In this document: one piece after another, positions 277 through 40,223 of the stretch
Layout: each line of letters starts with the position of its first letter
Numbering within the stretch: the stretch's first letter is position 1
Translations under genes and position numbers: made by a program
The notes under the pieces: generated by a model
Told to the model about the DNA's origin: nothing
What the model saw: only the letters and a program-made list of their open reading frames with translations
Databases searched by the model: none
DNA from: a virus
Virus record (IMG/VR): IMGVR_UViG_3300032893_000127
Location: 1 to 41,593 of that record
Direction: 5' to 3' (one strand)
DNA: 41,593 nt

Positions 277-585
277 CTATTTGATAAATGCAATGACGTC
301 TGCGTCCTCGAGGATCTTGTAGTCGACCTGCTTTTCGCTCTCGCGGGTCTTGATGGACTCGCCGGCGTACGCGCCGTAGATAACGCGGTCGCCCTTCTTC
401 ACGTCCTTGATCTCGGGACCGACCGCTTCGACGGTGCCCTGCGCCTTGCGCTCCTGCTCGATGTCGTCGGGGATGACGATGCCGTACTCGTTCACGCGGC
501 TCTGCTCGTCGTCGACGCGCACGAGGATCTGCTTGCCACGCGGCACGATGACCACCTTCTTCTCCTTTTGCTTTTTTGTGCTCAT
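277..585 (-). CDS. groES: GroES-like co-chaperonin (allele 1)
   Basis: 102 residues. The Cpn10 fold is recognisable: a central VIVPRGKQILVRVD strand, a mobile-loop region with the hydrophobic GIVIP tripeptide that docks onto GroEL, then GTVEAVGPE and KKGDRVIYG strands. A basic N-terminal extension (about 10 residues, many Lys) is longer than in typical GroES. It overlaps the upstream membrane-protein gene by an ATGA and shares a genome with a GroEL gene at 38389..39936, so the phage appears to carry a complete chaperonin pair. A second copy at 41199..41507 differs by a handful of residues and mainly silent changes. Confidence 0.93.
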   Translation of the reverse strand: MSTKKQKEKKVVIVPRGKQILVRVDDEQSRVNEYGIVIPDDIEQERKAQGTVEAVGPEIKDVKKGDRVIYGAYAGESIKTRESEKQVDYKILEDADVIAFIK

Positions 586-3449: not shown

Positions 3450-4448
3450 TTATACCTCATAGCTTTTTTTGATGGCTTCGCGCAGCTCCTTCGCCACGTC
3501 GGGGTTCGCTTTCAGAAACTGCCGGCTCGCGTCGTATCCGCGGCCGAGCGTGCGGTCGTCGTACACGTATGCGTTGCCAGACTTCTTTAGCGCTCCTGCT
3601 GCCTCGCCGAGCACGAGCATCTCGCTCTCCGGAGAGATGCCCTCGCCGTAGATGATGTCGTATTCGGTGATCTTGAACGGGCTCGCCACCTTGTTCTTTA
3701 CCACCTTCGCCTTGATGCGCGCGCCGACGACGTCCTCGCCTTTCTTTATCGAACTCGTGCGGCGCAGGTCGATGCGGATAGTCGCGGCGTACTTGAGCGC
3801 GCGTCCGCCGCTCGTGGTCTCCGGCACCTGCCCGTTGGGGCTGTACGCGCCAATGTTGGTGCGGAGCTGGTTCACGAACACGAGGCAGGTGTTGGACTTC
3901 GAGATCTTGCCGGTGAGCATGCGCAGCGCCTGCGACATGAGGCGCGCCTGCCCTGCCATGTGCGCGTCGCCAATCTCGCCCTCGAGTTCCGACTTGGGAA
4001 TGATGGCGGCTACGGAGTCGAATACGACGACCGCGAGCTTGTGGCTCTCAATCATCGCCTCGGTTATCTTGAGCGCCTCCTCGCCGCCGGATGGCTGCGA
4101 GATGAGCAGCTTTTTTGTGTCGACACCGATCTTGCGGGCATATGCCGGATCCATCGCATGCTCGAGGTCGATGTATGCGCATGTCTCGCCTTCGCTCTGC
4201 GCCTGCGCCACCACGTGCAAGGCGAGCGTCGTCTTGCCGGTTGCCTCGGGGCCGTAGATCTCGGTGATGCGGCCGCGTGGCAGGCCTCCTATCCCGAGAG
4301 CGTGGTCGAGCCCGAGCGATCGCGTGGAGATTGCGCCGATGTCGACGGCGTTGTGGTCGTCGAGCATCATCACCGCGTCCTCTCCGAAGCGACTCTGCAG
4401 GTCGCGCATGAGTTCGTCGCCCACGTCTACTGTCTTTTTCTTGCTCAT
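3450..4448 (-). CDS. recA: RecA recombinase
   Basis: 332 residues from MSKKKTVDVG. Walker A is GPEATGKTT (66-74), where most RecA proteins have GPESSGKTT. The protein also has FDSVAAIIPK (Walker B region), MSQALRMLT, the NQLRTNIG loop (L2 region) and GGRALKYAA. It catalyses strand exchange on single-stranded DNA. It overlaps the helicase-loader gene by ATGA and is transcribed from the initiator promoter P3. Somewhat shorter than bacterial RecA (about 350), lacking much of the C-terminal acidic tail. Confidence 0.97.
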   Translation of the reverse strand: MSKKKTVDVGDELMRDLQSRFGEDAVMMLDDHNAVDIGAISTRSLGLDHALGIGGLPRGRITEIYGPEATGKTTLALHVVAQAQSEGETCAYIDLEHAMDPAYARKIGVDTKKLLISQPSGGEEALKITEAMIESHKLAVVVFDSVAAIIPKSELEGEIGDAHMAGQARLMSQALRMLTGKISKSNTCLVFVNQLRTNIGAYSPNGQVPETTSGGRALKYAATIRIDLRRTSSIKKGEDVVGARIKAKVVKNKVASPFKITEYDIIYGEGISPESEMLVLGEAAGALKKSGNAYVYDDRTLGRGYDASRQFLKANPDVAKELREAIKKSYEV

Positions 4449-4966
4449 TTGAGTCGGCGGTCCACGCCCTCTAGTTTGATAATCTCGCACATCTCCGCGA
4501 TGCGGCTCGAGATGCGGTCGCCGAGGCGCTCCGACATCTCGCCTAGCTCGAGGTTGCTGGTGATGATGGTCGGCAGCACTTCGCGGTACCGCTTGTCGAC
4601 GATCTTGAACATGGTCTCGCTCACCCAGTCGCTCGCCTTTTCCGCACCGAGGTCGTCGATGATGAGCACGCCCCGGTTGGCCAGTATCCGGTCGAGGTTG
4701 AAGCTGTCCTTGTGGTCGAAGTCGTCGCGGATCATGTCGAACATCTCGGGAGCGCTGTGTATGCGCACGGTGATGCCCATCTCGTAGAGGCGCTTCCGGA
4801 TCGCGTAAATCGTGTACGTCTTTCCGACGCCTATCGGGCCCCAGAGGTACAGACCCTTCCTCGTTTTGCGCACGTTCTCGATGATGTCGCGTATCTGCTG
4901 CGGGAGCGTCGAGAAGTCCGCATGCTCGAAGCGCTTAGGCGCGGGTGCTGGTTCCAACATTGTCAT
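4445..4966 (-). CDS. DnaC/IstB-like AAA+ helicase loader
   Basis: 173 residues. Walker A GPIGVGKT (43-50), Walker B GVLIIDDLGAEK, and sensor-1-like TIITSNLELGEM with an SRIAEM arginine motif. This is the minimal ATPase core of DnaC/DnaI-type loaders, which place a replicative helicase on the origin. No phage helicase is encoded here, so it probably recruits the host helicase (inference). It overlaps both the initiator gene (32 bases) and recA (ATGA). Confidence 0.9.
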   Translation of the reverse strand: MTMLEPAPAPKRFEHADFSTLPQQIRDIIENVRKTRKGLYLWGPIGVGKTYTIYAIRKRLYEMGITVRIHSAPEMFDMIRDDFDHKDSFNLDRILANRGVLIIDDLGAEKASDWVSETMFKIVDKRYREVLPTIITSNLELGEMSERLGDRISSRIAEMCEIIKLEGVDRRLK

Positions 4967-5681
4967 ATTTCGAGTTCTTTTTCTGCGCCGGCGCGATCTG
5001 GTCGTCCCAACGCTCGCCGTTAATCCACGTAGCCGGGTGGGGTATGTACCTTCCGTCGTCCTTCGACCATTGGGGACTCTTTTTCGCGGCGTCGAGGGCT
5101 GTCATGATCTTCGCGATGAGCTCGGGGGTGATGTCCACCTTCTGCCACGCCTTCCATGCGGCCTTTTTGCCGACCTTGTTGGGGTATTTTTCCCAGAAGG
5201 CGACGAAGGCATTGTCAGAAGTGAGCGTATTTGTATTATCTTTACTTTTCTTATCTTTACTTATCTTAAGCGGCGTTTTGGAACCCGTTTGGTTGCCACT
5301 TGGTTGCCCGATGGTTGACACAGGCGGAAAGTCGAATGATGGAGCCGGAATATGGCTCTCCCGGCGCCTGTCCTCGCGTATTTGTTGGTATTCCTCCCAT
5401 TTTGGGTGGAAGAAGTACTCCTCTCCGTCGACGTCGTACTTTACGACCAGTTTTTGTGCCTCTATTTCCTTGAGCCAGCGTGCCACGTCGGCTACTTTCA
5501 CGTCGTCGTCGTAGGGGAATATCTGGCTGCGGATTAGCGCAGCGCTTCCCTTAAGACGCCCGTCGTCGTCGCCGAGCGTTATCATGCCGATGTAGAGGAG
5601 ACGGCCTTCCTTCGAGAGGCGGGAAAACTGCCCGCTGGCCCATATCGTCGTGTGCACCATCCTCTTTTGTCCTGCGTTCAT
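4935..5681 (-). CDS. Replication initiator (O/DnaD-like)
   Basis: 248 residues from MNAGQKRM. The N-terminal winged-helix-like part (LSKEGRLLYIGMITLGDDDG, then DVARWLKEIEAQKL) resembles phage replisome organisers. A Lys/Asn/Thr-rich linker sits in the middle (about 130-155). The C-terminal part (AFWEKYPNKVGKKAAWKAW, then IPHPATWINGERW) is the common tail of phage O/DnaD-type initiators. The linker DNA contains iterons and an AT-rich stretch, as in lambda O, so the gene probably contains its own origin. First gene after P3; -10 ends 9 bases before the ATG. Confidence 0.8.
   Translation of the reverse strand: MNAGQKRMVHTTIWASGQFSRLSKEGRLLYIGMITLGDDDGRLKGSAALIRSQIFPYDDDVKVADVARWLKEIEAQKLVVKYDVDGEEYFFHPKWEEYQQIREDRRRESHIPAPSFDFPPVSTIGQPSGNQTGSKTPLKISKDKKSKDNTNTLTSDNAFVAFWEKYPNKVGKKAAWKAWQKVDITPELIAKIMTALDAAKKSPQWSKDDGRYIPHPATWINGERWDDQIAPAQKKNSKYDNVGTSTRA
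5236..5319. repeat. Putative replication origin: AT-rich repeats plus iterons
   Basis: Inside the initiator gene. TTATCTTTACTT occurs at 5236-5247 and 5251-5262 (15-bp period) with a partial third copy from 5261; this is a sharply AT-rich patch in GC-rich DNA and could be the unwinding element. Next to it are three 9-bp direct repeats: TTGGTTGCC at 5289-5297, TTGGTTGCC at 5300-5308 and ATGGTTGAC at 5311-5319. They have an exact 11-bp period, about one helical turn, as expected for initiator binding sites. Confidence 0.7.
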
Positions 5682-5690
5682 AGTTTTTTC

Positions 5691-5736
5691 ATTATACCAA
5701 CCCGTCGCCATTCGGCGAGTTGGAATGTGTGGACAA
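5691..5736 (-). promoter_or_regulatory. Promoter module P3 (replication operon)
   Basis: Minus strand: TTGTCCACA (5736-5728, one change from the DnaA box), 31-base gap, TATAAT (5696-5691), then 9 bases to the ATG at 5681, so at most a 2-3 base leader. Between them is a larger inverted repeat: GTCGCC (5704-5709) and GGCGAG (5714-5719) inside matching CCAAC/GTTGG flanks. Confidence 0.75.
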
Positions 5737-7593: not shown

Positions 7594-7631
7594 ATTGTAT
7601 CGCGTATGGCGAGCCGTCGCCATGTGGATAA
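7594..7631 (-). promoter_or_regulatory. Promoter module P4 (recombination operon)
   Basis: Minus strand: TTATCCACA (7631-7623), directly followed by the palindrome GGCGACGGCTCGCC (7621-7608), then TACAAT (7599-7594). Box-to-minus-10 gap is 23 bases here instead of 30-32. Leader of about 22 bases to the ERF ATG at 7565. Confidence 0.65.
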
Positions 7632-9038: not shown

Positions 9039-9076
9039 ATGGTTTTTATTTAAGCTCTAATATATCGACCATCGTT

Positions 9077-9121
9077 ATTATAGCGACCCCTCGCTATCTG
9101 TCCATAGAGTCATGTGGATAA
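9077..9121 (-). promoter_or_regulatory. Promoter module P5
   Basis: The cleanest module. Minus strand: TTATCCACA (9121-9113), -35 TGGACA (9104-9099), a 16-base spacer carrying GCGACCCCTCGC (9083-9094, plus-strand reading), -10 TATAAT (9082-9077). Leader about 32 bases to the ATG at 9038. Confidence 0.85.
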
Positions 9122-9130
9122 CTCTGATAC

Positions 9131-9155
9131 GCAGAAAAGCCCCATTTTTAGGGCT
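9131..9155 (-). terminator. Rho-independent terminator of the late operon
   Basis: Minus-strand hairpin AGCCC-TAAAAATG-GGGCT (9155-9138) followed by TTTTCTGC. It lies after the lysin gene and before promoter module P5. Confidence 0.8.
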
Positions 9156-9163
9156 TATTCTGC

Positions 9164-9194
9164 TTGGTTGACGTTTGGTTGCCGCTCGGTTGTC
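9164..9194. repeat. Second iteron triplet
   Basis: Three 9-bp direct repeats with an 11-bp period: TTGGTTGAC (9164-9172), TTGGTTGCC (9175-9183), TCGGTTGTC (9186-9194). Same unit, orientation and spacing as the triplet in the initiator gene at 5289-5319. Here they are essentially non-coding, between the lysin stop and the terminator, which argues against a codon-usage coincidence. Confidence 0.65.
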
Positions 9195-9603
9195 ATTCTT
9201 TTGGCGGCATCCCTATGTGTGCGACACATGCTGGGAATTGATGGTGGAGGTTCACTCGGTTGTCGATAATCATGTGCTCGACGATCTGGATCTGCTCTAT
9301 CGGGTTCATGTAGTCTGTTGTCGAAGCGAGGCCGTACAGCTTTGCGAACTCTGCGTATGTCGATGGTTTGAACTGCAGGAGTCCGTAGCTCGGCGTTCCG
9401 TCGCTGTCGCGAGGGTTGATCGCCTTCGGGTTTCCTTGGCTCTCGCACCACTCGAGTGCTCCGAGCCATGCGCTGCGCTCAGTTGCTATCGCGGGATCTT
9501 CCTCTCCTCTCTGATAATAAACGTCGTTTCTATCGAGAGCGGAAGCGATTGTGGAGAGCGATGCGAGCAACACCACAGCCGCGACTGCTATTTTTGCCAC
9601 CAT
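9193..9603 (-). CDS. Exported lysozyme/transglycosylase-like endolysin
   Basis: 136 residues with an N-terminal signal-like segment (VAKIAVAAVVLLASLSTIASA). The domain then reads ALEWCESQGNP, with a Glu in the catalytic position, PSYGLLQFKPSTY, and MNPIEQIQIVEHMI, typical of small SLT/resuscitation-factor-like muralytic domains. Next to a holin-like gene at the end of the late operon, so likely the endolysin. The signal segment suggests export or signal-anchor release. Confidence 0.75.
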   Translation of the reverse strand: MVAKIAVAAVVLLASLSTIASALDRNDVYYQRGEEDPAIATERSAWLGALEWCESQGNPKAINPRDSDGTPSYGLLQFKPSTYAEFAKLYGLASTTDYMNPIEQIQIVEHMIIDNRVNLHHQFPACVAHIGMPPKE

Positions 9604-17564: not shown

Positions 17565-19298
17565 TTATGGAAGGAGGCGCACCTCTCGCACGCGAGCAGC
17601 CGACGTACCGCTTGCACCGTTTGCGACGGAAGCCACCTCGACTTGGATCTGGATGTTTTCTATATCTATGAGGCCTACGTCGCTGTCGAAGGAAGTGGTG
17701 GTGCCATCGAGCGTGTAGGTCGCAAGCGTTGTGAATGAGCCCGTCACGCCGGTTCGATATGAGATGCGTATCTGGCCACCCGAGCCGCCTGGTTGATCGA
17801 GTTGGCACTCGAGAATGGAGTACGTGGTTTTCTCGAAGCGCGTGCCGACGTTGTAGAGACGACTTTGCACGAGGCTGTTGCCGAGCGTGTCGTAGCGGTT
17901 CGTCGACACAAGGTCCACGCCGCCTGCATAGCCGGAGAAGTAAAACTCGCCCGACTGGTTGCCGAGGACGCGTGGAAGGAGCTGCCCCTGCGACGGCGTG
18001 TTCTCCCAGATGAGGCGCCCGTCGGGATAGATCAGGAATATCCCAGCCGCTCCATTGAGACCGCTCACACCAAACATAAATGCGCCGTTCTTGGCGGCAA
18101 CACCGCCCCATGTGATTAGGTTTGACCCACCGCTCGTACTCTGGAATAGATGCTCGGGGAGCTTGCGCACCTGCGTCACGAGGTAGCCGGTCGTGCTGTA
18201 CACGATGCCGCGGAGGCCGGCGAGTATGTATACCTTGTTGCCGATGTTCTTCATGCCGTAGATGCCGACTTCCGGCGAAAGGAGCGGTAGGTCGAAGCTC
18301 GGGGAGATGCGGTCCCACGGATAGATGAGGTTGGTGTAGCCTCCACCCACGAGGAGATCCTGCCCGAGCTGCTCAAGGCATTGTGCAATGTCATTGGCAG
18401 GAAGTGTGAGTGCCTTCGAGTTGTACGAATACGTGCCGCTCGAGCCGGGCGCGAACACCTGGCCAGGTACTTCCTGTATCGAGACTATGTAGCGCGAATC
18501 GCACGCGTAAACGATGTTGTCATATCCGAGGAGTGCTTGGTGAACGGCATTTGACCCAGCCCCCGAGTTGAGACTTTCCCATGCGGTCGTCCAGCATGAA
18601 TTGCCGACTGGATCGCGACGCTTTGATTGCGTGCTCACGTCGCACACGTCGATGGTCGCGTTGCGGAACACGAAGAGGTAGATGGCGCTTCCGTCGGAGA
18701 CGGGGAATAAACAGAGTCCTTGCCCGTCGCCGTTCGTTATCGTGTTGCCGTTGAGCAGGTACGTGCCAGTGGTTCCTTCCGAGTACCACACGCGACCGTT
18801 GCTGTCGCCGAAATACGCGACGTTGGTACCGTTCGCGTCGTTGCCCTGCGCGTATGAGTTCACCGTGCCGATGTCGACGGTCGTGACGGTGCAGGTGCCG
18901 GAGCCGTTTCCGGCGAGCGAGAGGTTGTTGTGGCTAAGAGCGTGCCCGAGTGTGTCGGCTATGATTACGCGGCCGGAGGCGAACTTGTATAGAAAATAAA
19001 TCGTGCCAGCCGTGATGTTGGAGTCGAGCGTGCCGCCCCCTGCGGTCGAGAACGTGACGGCGACGCCGTCGGTCTGCAGCACGGTGTCGGGAGAGGTGAG
19101 GTCGCAGGTGCCCGAAACGTTCCACGTGAACGTCTGCGAGTGGTTCGTCGGGAAGCTGTTGAGCGCCGGCATGTAGTTCGGCTGCACAGTTCCCGGCACC
19201 GCATCGATGGACGCGTTCTGCACAAGACCCAGCCCGACGTTCGGGCTGTCGCCCATCGCGTCGTTCCATTCGTTGATGATGAGTGGTGTAGTTGCCAT
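17565..19298 (-). CDS. Large tail protein, possible nozzle/stopper
   Basis: 577 residues, mostly beta. It starts with a short extended arm (PLIINEWNDAMGDSP), then many Gly/Ser/Thr-rich strands with repeated W/Y-G turns suggesting a propeller-like body. A C-terminal beta domain ends ARVREVRLLP. Size and position after the adaptor gene resemble nozzle proteins of short-tailed phages (T7 gp12-like), but I see no decisive motif. Confidence 0.5.
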   Translation of the reverse strand: MATTPLIINEWNDAMGDSPNVGLGLVQNASIDAVPGTVQPNYMPALNSFPTNHSQTFTWNVSGTCDLTSPDTVLQTDGVAVTFSTAGGGTLDSNITAGTIYFLYKFASGRVIIADTLGHALSHNNLSLAGNGSGTCTVTTVDIGTVNSYAQGNDANGTNVAYFGDSNGRVWYSEGTTGTYLLNGNTITNGDGQGLCLFPVSDGSAIYLFVFRNATIDVCDVSTQSKRRDPVGNSCWTTAWESLNSGAGSNAVHQALLGYDNIVYACDSRYIVSIQEVPGQVFAPGSSGTYSYNSKALTLPANDIAQCLEQLGQDLLVGGGYTNLIYPWDRISPSFDLPLLSPEVGIYGMKNIGNKVYILAGLRGIVYSTTGYLVTQVRKLPEHLFQSTSGGSNLITWGGVAAKNGAFMFGVSGLNGAAGIFLIYPDGRLIWENTPSQGQLLPRVLGNQSGEFYFSGYAGGVDLVSTNRYDTLGNSLVQSRLYNVGTRFEKTTYSILECQLDQPGGSGGQIRISYRTGVTGSFTTLATYTLDGTTTSFDSDVGLIDIENIQIQVEVASVANGASGTSAARVREVRLLP

Positions 19299-38300: not shown

Positions 38301-38304
38301 CTTG

Positions 38305-38375
38305 TTGCGCCGGCAGAATCGAACCCGCCTCTCCGCCTTATGAGGGCGGCGTGGTCACCAGACCACCTCGGCGCG
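38305..38375 (-). tRNA. tRNA with anticodon CAU (Met/fMet/Ile2)
   Basis: A cloverleaf can be drawn: acceptor CGCGCCG with CGGCGCA, leaving C1 opposite A72, the mismatch typical of bacterial initiator tRNAs; D-arm GTGG/CCAC; anticodon stem CCGCC/GGCGG with loop CTCATAA (anticodon CAT); T-arm GCGGG-TTCGAT-TCTGC with a short loop. It lacks the three G:C pairs usual in initiator anticodon stems. The 3' end reads A-CAA, so CCA would be added. It lies 13 bases downstream of groEL and is probably co-transcribed. The short T-loop means it could be degenerate. Confidence 0.65.
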
Positions 38376-38388
38376 CGTACACTATACC

Positions 38389-39936
38389 TTATTCCCTTTT
38401 CGGCTCCGGCGGCGGCTCTACAATCATGCCGGACACCGTCACTAGGATGCTTGCGATGGATACTGCGCTCTCGACGGCCGCGACGAGTACGTCGACTGCG
38501 TCGAGGACGCCGACCTTGAGCCACGGGCCGGTCTGGCCTGTGACCACGTTGAGCGCGTCGCCCTTTTTGAGGACCGGCATCGTGTCGATGCCCATGTTCT
38601 CGAGAAGCTGGCGATGCGGGCGACGGAGCGCCTTGTTGAGCAGTTCGCTCGAGGTCGTAACATTGGCGAGTGCGATCCCGCCTCCCGCAACCACTCCGCC
38701 ACGATACGCTGCCTTCACGGAGTTGACGGAGTCCTCCACTTTGTACTTGCGCGCCTTGCGCTCGTTGTCGGTCTCTGCGCCGACTTTGATGACAGCCACT
38801 TGGTTGGTGAACATGCCGAGGCGGCGCTTGAGCGCGTCCTTCTCCTTCTCGTCCTTCGCCTCGTCGATTGCGATGCGGAGGTTGAGGATTGCCTCGGTGA
38901 CCGTCTTGCGGTTCCCTTTCGGGCGCACGATGACGGTCTGGTCGCGCTTCGAGATGACGCGGTCGGCGCGGCCGAGCTGATCAATCTCCACGGTCTGGAG
39001 CTTGTCGCCCTTCTTCATCGAGAAGAAGCGGGCGCCAGTCATGAGCGCGATGTCTGCGAGCACCGTCTGCATGCTCTCGCCGGACGGTGCCGGCACGGCG
39101 ATTGACTGCACGATGCCCGGCTGCCGCGTGTGCGGGTTCATGATATTCGGATGGTTGATGAGGAGCGTCGCGAGCGCGGCATCCTCGATGTGCTCGGCGA
39201 TGATGACGAGCTTGTTCTTGCCGGCCGCCGCCATCTTGTTGAGGAGCGGGAGCACGTCGTCGGAGTTCGTGAGCCGGTAGTCGGTCACGAGGATATACGG
39301 CTGCTCGATCACTGCCTCCATGCGCTGGGGGTTCGTGACCATGAACGGCGAGAGGTAGCCGCGGCGTATCTGTACGCCGTCCGCGAGCTCGGCGGTTACG
39401 TTCGGGAGTGGGGAGTCCTCGAGGGTTACCTCTCCGTCCTTCCCGATTTTGTGCCACGTGTCGGCGATGACCTCGGCAATCTCTGGGTCGTCGTACGAAA
39501 CTCGGGCGACCTTGAGGAGTTCCTCCTTGGTCGTCACTTTCTTCGCCATGCCGCGGAGCTGCTCAACGGCCTCCTTTGCGGCCGCCTTGAGCTCGCGCTC
39601 GATTTTGTGGCCGTCGCGCTTCGTGAGGTCGGCTACGCCGGTGATGATCTCCTGCACCATGATGGTGGCTCCGGTGGTGCCGTCTCCAACGCGGTCGTTG
39701 GTCTTTATCGCGGTCTCCTTGATGACCTTGAGCACCGCGTTCTCGTTCGGGTCATCGAGCTCGAGATCGCGCATGATCTGCACGCCGTCGTCCACGACCA
39801 TGCGGTATATCGGCTTGTCGATGATGACCTTGTTGCTCGACGGGCCGTAGGTCGGGCGCACCGCAGCGCCTGCCTGCTTGACAGCATTCACAATGATGTC
39901 GAACGGGTCTTTGGTAGTGATTAAAACTTTTGTCAT
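38389..39936 (-). CDS. groEL: GroEL chaperonin
   Basis: 515 residues from MTKVLITTKDPF. ATP site GDGTT (84-88; the Asp equivalent to E. coli D87 is D85), the ATPase Asp in KVEDSVNS (D402, equivalent to D398), and GGVVAGGGIAL. The apical domain RRGYLSPFMV, LLNKMAAAGKNKLVIIAEHI is conserved, including hydrophobic substrate/GroES-binding positions. The phosphate-loop region reads YGPSSNKVIIDK instead of LGPKGRNVVLDK. No Gly/Met-rich C-terminal tail. With groES in the same operon it should assist folding of phage (capsid) proteins. Confidence 0.96.
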   Translation of the reverse strand: MTKVLITTKDPFDIIVNAVKQAGAAVRPTYGPSSNKVIIDKPIYRMVVDDGVQIMRDLELDDPNENAVLKVIKETAIKTNDRVGDGTTGATIMVQEIITGVADLTKRDGHKIERELKAAAKEAVEQLRGMAKKVTTKEELLKVARVSYDDPEIAEVIADTWHKIGKDGEVTLEDSPLPNVTAELADGVQIRRGYLSPFMVTNPQRMEAVIEQPYILVTDYRLTNSDDVLPLLNKMAAAGKNKLVIIAEHIEDAALATLLINHPNIMNPHTRQPGIVQSIAVPAPSGESMQTVLADIALMTGARFFSMKKGDKLQTVEIDQLGRADRVISKRDQTVIVRPKGNRKTVTEAILNLRIAIDEAKDEKEKDALKRRLGMFTNQVAVIKVGAETDNERKARKYKVEDSVNSVKAAYRGGVVAGGGIALANVTTSSELLNKALRRPHRQLLENMGIDTMPVLKKGDALNVVTGQTGPWLKVGVLDAVDVLVAAVESAVSIASILVTVSGMIVEPPPEPKRE

Positions 39937-40223
39937 ACAACCGAGTATCGAATTACTTTTGTTAATTTTTTTGAGTTGCACGGCCCGCAAAGATGAGCTA
40001 TACGCCATTCACGAGCTTTTACTTTTGCTCTTGCTTTTACCTCTGGCTTTGCTTTACACTTTGCAACAATTTCCTTTCTTCTTTCAGGATGCGCCAGAGC
40101 CCATGCTTTTGATCTCGCCTTTGTCGCCTCTTTAGAGAGTTGATACCGTGCTGGGTTTTTTGCTCGGAGACGTTCTCGGTTACGAGCATAAAACTCCTTC
40201 CAATATCCAGGTGGCATTTTCAT
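39933..40223 (-). CDS. Basic protein, possible homing-endonuclease remnant
   Basis: 96 residues from MKMPPGYWKEF. Highly basic repeat-like helices (YARNRERLRAKNPARYQLSK, KAWALAHPERRKEIVAKCK) like the N-terminal regions of some phage HNH proteins, then HLCGPCNSKKLTKVI with one CxxC. No full HNH core. AT-rich and wedged between groEL and the zinc-protein gene by 4-base overlaps. Probably a mobile or decayed endonuclease. Confidence 0.5.
   Translation of the reverse strand: MKMPPGYWKEFYARNRERLRAKNPARYQLSKEATKARSKAWALAHPERRKEIVAKCKAKPEVKARAKVKAREWRIAHLCGPCNSKKLTKVIRYSVV

Follow-up and report, generated by a model that had tools for sequence, protein, structure and literature searches.

The DNA analysed here (the window) is a whole virus record of 41,593 bases, in which the main genes all read leftward. 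The lysin gene is the last in a series of genes for structure and lysis, and the early operon holds the genes for an annealing protein, an exonuclease, the replication initiator, a helicase loader and RecA; the labels early and late are assigned from gene content. The same repeated unit forms one array inside the initiator gene (the primary array) and a second array at the late/early junction. The features of the two sites are as follows.

4445..4966, minus strand: DnaC-like helicase loader, the gene next after the initiator
4935..5711, minus strand: replication initiator (PHROG replication initiation protein) with a winged-helix N-terminal domain, residues about 20-125
5228..5267: unwinding element of the TAA/TAG type, AT-rich (82%), adjoining the primary array; gene strand AAGATAAGTAAAGATAAGAAAAGTAAAGATAA
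5289..5319, plus strand: primary array, the in-gene origin iterons TTGGTTGCC, TTGGTTGCC and ATGGTTGAC with an 11-bp period
9077..9104, minus strand: strong promoter of the sigma-70 type, TGGACA-16-TATAAT (11/12), the presumed early-operon promoter
9080-9097: palindrome ATAGCGAggggTCGCTAT between the promoter hexamers
9113..9121, minus strand: TTATCCACA box upstream of the promoter, matching the DnaA-box consensus perfectly; the genome has five such boxes
9131..9163, minus strand: terminator hairpin of the lysin/late operon, abutting the second array (sequence, pattern scan and RNA fold)
9164..9172, plus strand: second array, unit 1, TTGGTTGAC (sequence and pattern scan)
9175..9183, plus strand: second array, unit 2, TTGGTTGCC (sequence and pattern scan)
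9186..9194, plus strand: second array, unit 3, TCGGTTGTC, sharing two bases with the lysin stop codon
9193..9603, minus strand: lysin, which has a transglycosylase domain of the SLT type (PF01464) and ends the presumed late operon
9256..9264, plus strand: stray single unit TCGGTTGTC in the lysin gene, outside the 11-bp register

The initial annotation had described three units with an 11-bp period at 9164-9194, and both the coordinates and the sequence were found to be exact. The unit, the plus orientation and the 11-bp spacing are those of the origin triplet at 5289-5319, as had been claimed, and the arrays are 3.85 kb apart (given earlier as 4 kb). The second array had been called non-coding, which holds for all of it except the last two bases of unit 3, since these also belong to the stop codon of the lysin gene (TGA, 9193-9195). 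Its left edge directly abuts the hairpin at 9131-9163; hence, it does have the lysin stop on one side and the terminator on the other. The stray unit at 9256-9264 is 70 bp away, which is not a multiple of 11, and it is therefore out of register and probably background.

With up to three mismatches allowed, the triplet pattern was found at only two places in the window (5289-5319 and 9164-9194) and in none of 100 dinucleotide shuffles, and three GGTTGNC cores at 11 bp are expected 2.4e-6 times in the window under a first-order Markov model. Scored against the unit, both arrays reach 23/24, and no other place exceeds 17/24 when overlapping registers of the two arrays are left out. Isolated GGTTGNC cores occur often on the plus strand, partly from strand composition (32 on the plus and 3 on the minus strand, with 16.0 and 4.6 expected), so that only the arrays are informative. 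The GGTTGNC core is identical between the first and second arrays at 18 of 18 positions, while their 40-bp flanks, compared in register, match at only 7/40 and 10/40 positions. It was concluded from this difference that the second array is not a recent segmental duplication, and a duplication of the origin was ruled out on the unrelated flanks. As all 18 core positions are shared between unrelated flanks, and the second array is free of coding constraint, the conservation of the units points to protein binding.

The primary array lies at a relative position of 0.51 of the initiator gene. As in lambda, where the iterons also lie in the initiator gene O at ori, it is accompanied by an AT-rich unwinding element and the helicase loader gene comes next; lambda differs in its longer iterons and its single ori. 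A structure model of the initiator contains a winged-helix domain predicted with confidence (pLDDT averaging 95-98 across residues 21-100) and a helical C-terminal part, joined by a low-confidence linker (pLDDT about 53 for residues 131-140, and under 50 for residues 141-163), of which the array-encoded segment is a part. The top PDB fold matches of the model, at ranks 1-3, are the N-terminal domains of plasmid initiators (4pql and 4pt7), and these are weak (E about 0.006-0.02, target TM about 0.45). Pfam RepA_N gave no match in 28 members of the initiator family.

Viral contigs were scanned by the DNA pattern alone, without reference to genes, which returned at least 119 stretches. Among the matches listed, at least 94 arrays of three or more units, at no fewer than 92 loci, lie inside homologues of the window initiator, mostly at 0.33-0.60 of the gene length, and both orientations relative to the gene occur (68 versus 27, the window included). 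At least 10 remaining arrays lie in other genes, the N-termini of which look initiator-like by eye. Since a search that used only DNA finds the pattern in the middle of initiator homologues, GGTTGNC at 11 bp is, by its genomic association, the iteron of this winged-helix initiator family. In two loci (L037 and L060), triplets lie directly upstream of the initiator gene start or overlap it. In-gene arrays are followed on the 3' side of the gene by an AT/purine-rich TAG/TAA run (e.g. GGTAAGGATAGGTTAGGTAAG); the best 40-bp stretch has a median AT content of 0.75 and starts 26 nt past the array, and the primary site, at 0.825, fits this pattern. The idea that iteron orientation sets the side of the unwinding element was ruled out, as the AT-rich side tracks the 3' end of the gene in both orientations. 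The survey thus gives an origin signature that is short and can be searched for (GGTTGNC units spaced at 11 bp, then a TAG/TAA run, inside an initiator gene) and that recurs in many viral contigs, and of which no description was found in a limited search of the open-access literature.

No GGTTGNC dimers were found in 16 named phages with distant initiator homologues. Most of the named phages examined carry arrays of other units in or beside the initiator gene, with periods of 10-14 bp and often of 11 bp, and no distant second copy of these arrays was evident. Examples of the units are TCTCGCGAG in PFR1 and CCAATGGAC in a Lactobacillus phage, and several loci (L249, L252, L253, L248, L258, L260 and others) combine a period of mostly 10-11 bp with very different units. 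This suggests that initiator specificity may change rapidly at constant spacing.

Perfect core dimers were also counted in whole records, comprising about 146 other array-bearing viral contigs, many of which are fragments. A genome of this family normally has a single array, and in several of these records additional dimers lie no further than about 400 bp from the main one. Paired arrays, for which the initial annotation had proposed a search in related phages, were found in one of these records (G006), and the rest hold no perfect dimer more than 1 kb away. The second copy in G006 consists of an intergenic iteron pair (18938-18955) beside a repressor-like gene, followed by GGTAAGTATAGTTTAGTAAAGGGTAGTATAGGGTAG; the pair and its TAG-type run (G006:18936-19014, equal to L165:8437-8515) lie 6.7 kb from the in-gene array and possibly form a complete second origin. 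A chance occurrence of one perfect dimer in this much sequence is not very improbable (by estimate, fewer than one is expected), and hence the G006 case rests on the adjoining TAG-type run. As distant second arrays are rare, replication of this type cannot depend on them.

Searches with TerL, lysin, RecA and the initiator returned only distant relatives and L161, and no close relative that retains the origin triplet. L161/G055 is the nearest relative found and the sole one sharing the lysin and late/early junction; its lysin is 61% identical and the order of lysin and then early genes is the same. Its initiator is different and has iterons of its own, CACCAAAYG, at G055:31775-31851. This genome contains no GGTTGNC arrays anywhere, nor a second copy of its own CACCAAAYG iterons, and the joint absence of GGTTGNC arrays is compatible with a second array that depends on the present initiator. 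The repeats inside the gene for this different initiator (TCACCAAAYGRKGA) are at L161:10755-10834, and AT-rich DNA follows them. A separate locus, L118:4914-4944, carries a non-coding triplet beside a hairpin (CCCCATTTATATGGGG), similar to the GCCCCATTTTTAGGGC hairpin by the second array of the window; L118 is a fragment, and no initiator was found in that locus.

The occurrence of the same unit and 11-bp period mid-gene in initiator homologues gives good support to the proposal that the initiator has a further binding site here, and we infer that the initiator of this phage binds the second array. The array is real and unusual, and its function as a putative initiator-binding site is probably auxiliary. 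No unwinding run of the TAG/TAA type was found within 110 bp on either side of it, and its best 40-bp AT contents on the two sides are 0.60 and 0.575 (7th and 4th percentile). Since no stretch of the family type adjoins it, the second array is probably not a replication start. The missing melting stretch, together with the rarity of such arrays among relatives, makes a control or fork-stopping site likelier than a second origin.

For a role as a roadblock or pairing partner, the closest functional precedent is oriR of Bacillus phage SPP1. In SPP1, gp38 (G38P) has two binding sites, oriL within gene 38 itself and oriR in a long intergenic region; gp38 at oriR has been proposed to stall forks and so to bring about the switch to concatemer synthesis (PMC6316719, PMC3485210). 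SPP1 and the present phage both have one array in the initiator gene and another, intergenic one kilobases away, the second site is bracketed by transcription signals in both, and the genome sizes are similar (PMC6316719, PMC3485210). The two differ in that oriR has an AT-rich element, whereas none adjoins the second array here, and in the distance between the sites, which is 12-13 kb in SPP1 as against 3.85 kb. In RepA_N plasmids of the pSK41 type, the origin boxes lie centrally in the initiator gene and encode a linker, and iteron arrays are known to pair in other plasmids of the iteron kind (PMC5703833). The RepA_N initiators (pSK41 Rep and pTZ2162 RepA; 4pql/4pt7) may resemble the window initiator in their winged-helix N-terminal domain, and the binding boxes are central within the gene in both systems; iteron sequence and spacing differ, and the only boxes described for pSK41 are those in the middle of rep.

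The preferred reading, to which we give a little less than an even chance, is that the second array serves as an auxiliary site for the phage's own winged-helix initiator, either as a barrier or as a pairing site. Initiator molecules would be bound on one face of the helix at the 11-bp spacing, as at the origin. The occupied array would then act as a barrier that stalls the fork coming from the in-gene origin, in line with the switch model for SPP1 oriR; alternatively, the second array would pair with the origin array, limiting re-initiation. The choice between fork stalling and pairing is speculative. A narrower form of the idea, in which a site made of iterons only is dedicated to fork stalling or origin pairing, so that the oriR switch of SPP1 is split from origin function, is considered doubtful. 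The model for how phages switch from circle-to-circle replication to replication producing concatemers is largely based on SPP1, and a natural initiator array with no adjacent unwinding element would allow a barrier or pairing role to be tested apart from origin firing.

It is a good deal less probable that the array is a transcription control site, at which the bound initiator regulates the promoter at 9077-9104, presumably that of the early operon, or insulates it from late-operon read-through. The level of replication protein would in this way be coupled to early transcription. The array is located in the late/early intergenic region, abuts the terminator and lies 60 bp upstream of the -35 hexamer, and the triplets of L037 and L060 are found at initiator gene starts, where autoregulation would be natural. 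However, its centre is about 80 bp upstream of the -35 hexamer, which is far for direct repression, and the promoter contains a palindrome of its own that already resembles the operator. Moreover, going upstream from the initiator operon, the first promoter of this type is a different one (box at 7623), which has no iterons. The related suggestion of a late-transcription checkpoint agrees with the location of the array, after the late-operon stop and before the terminator, and nothing beyond that location supports it directly.

A complete second (late) origin, also put forward in the initial annotation, is disfavoured and regarded as improbable, the second array being without the TAG/TAA-type unwinding stretch seen after in-gene arrays. 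According to this explanation, an AT-rich stretch at 9043-9082 (78%), which lies 82 bp from the array and is part of the promoter/leader region, could serve as an unusual unwinding element and would melt with the aid of the TTATCCACA box and the early promoter. Both the stretch and the perfect box at 9113 are close by, SPP1 has two origins, and G006/L165 seems to carry intergenic iterons together with a TAG-type run. Nevertheless, the terminator hairpin separates the array from 9043-9082, and the box is found at four other promoters that lack iterons. The cumulative GC skew, with its minimum at 9103 and its maximum at 39425, would also seem to favour an origin here; the skew extreme coincides with the late/early gene boundary and is therefore not clean evidence, and it was rejected as such, the minimum moving to 13,078 after detrending.

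About equally improbable is a functionless array, either a relic of another origin or the product of chance growth from the seed ACAACCGA. This seed is present at the aligned place in the lysin gene of L161, the aligned 3' end of which has ACAACCGATAGCG opposite ACAACCGAGCG; moreover, second arrays are rare among array-bearing records and the phage is a singleton. On the other hand, all 18 core positions are intact in spite of the non-coding location and of flanks that bear no relation to the initiator gene. Translation continued past the lysin stop and through the array gives the peptide QPSGNQT, which might suggest a relic of an initiator gene; this was ruled out, since arrays of this kind encode the consensus QPxGNQ in that frame family-wide, and the peptide is thus no sign of a gene fragment.

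It is highly improbable that the array is an RNA element at the 3' end of the late mRNA, used by Rho or bound by a protein; the transcript does have three unstructured C-rich GNCAACC repeats, 11 nt apart, just before the terminator, and the array is single-stranded beside a strong hairpin in the centroid fold, but there is no Rfam match, and both the identity with the origin iterons in unit, spacing and strand and the family-wide link of the unit with initiator genes would be left unexplained.

The TTATCCACA box occurs five times in the genome, always on the minus strand (1381, 2302, 7623, 9113 and 37984), with 0.21 occurrences expected for TTATNCACA. A -10-like hexamer lies about 30 bp downstream in four of the five cases and 23 bp downstream at 7623, and a palindrome of the form AT(A/G)GCGAnnnnTCGC(T/C)AT is found at the promoter for four of the boxes (2269, 7606, 9080 and 37950). 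The copy at 9113 was ruled out as an origin-specific DnaA box, as every one of the five is associated with a promoter. Together, these promoters look like a regulon whose members share an upstream element similar to a DnaA box and a putative operator for a phage repressor. A scan for relatives using the promoter palindrome gave no match with a TTATCCACA box beside the palindrome. Lastly, the phage encodes both a GroES-like co-chaperonin (277-585, minus strand) and a GroEL/Cpn60-like chaperonin (38389-40008, minus strand), and a tRNA-Met (CAT) gene is located near the latter (38304-38375, minus strand).
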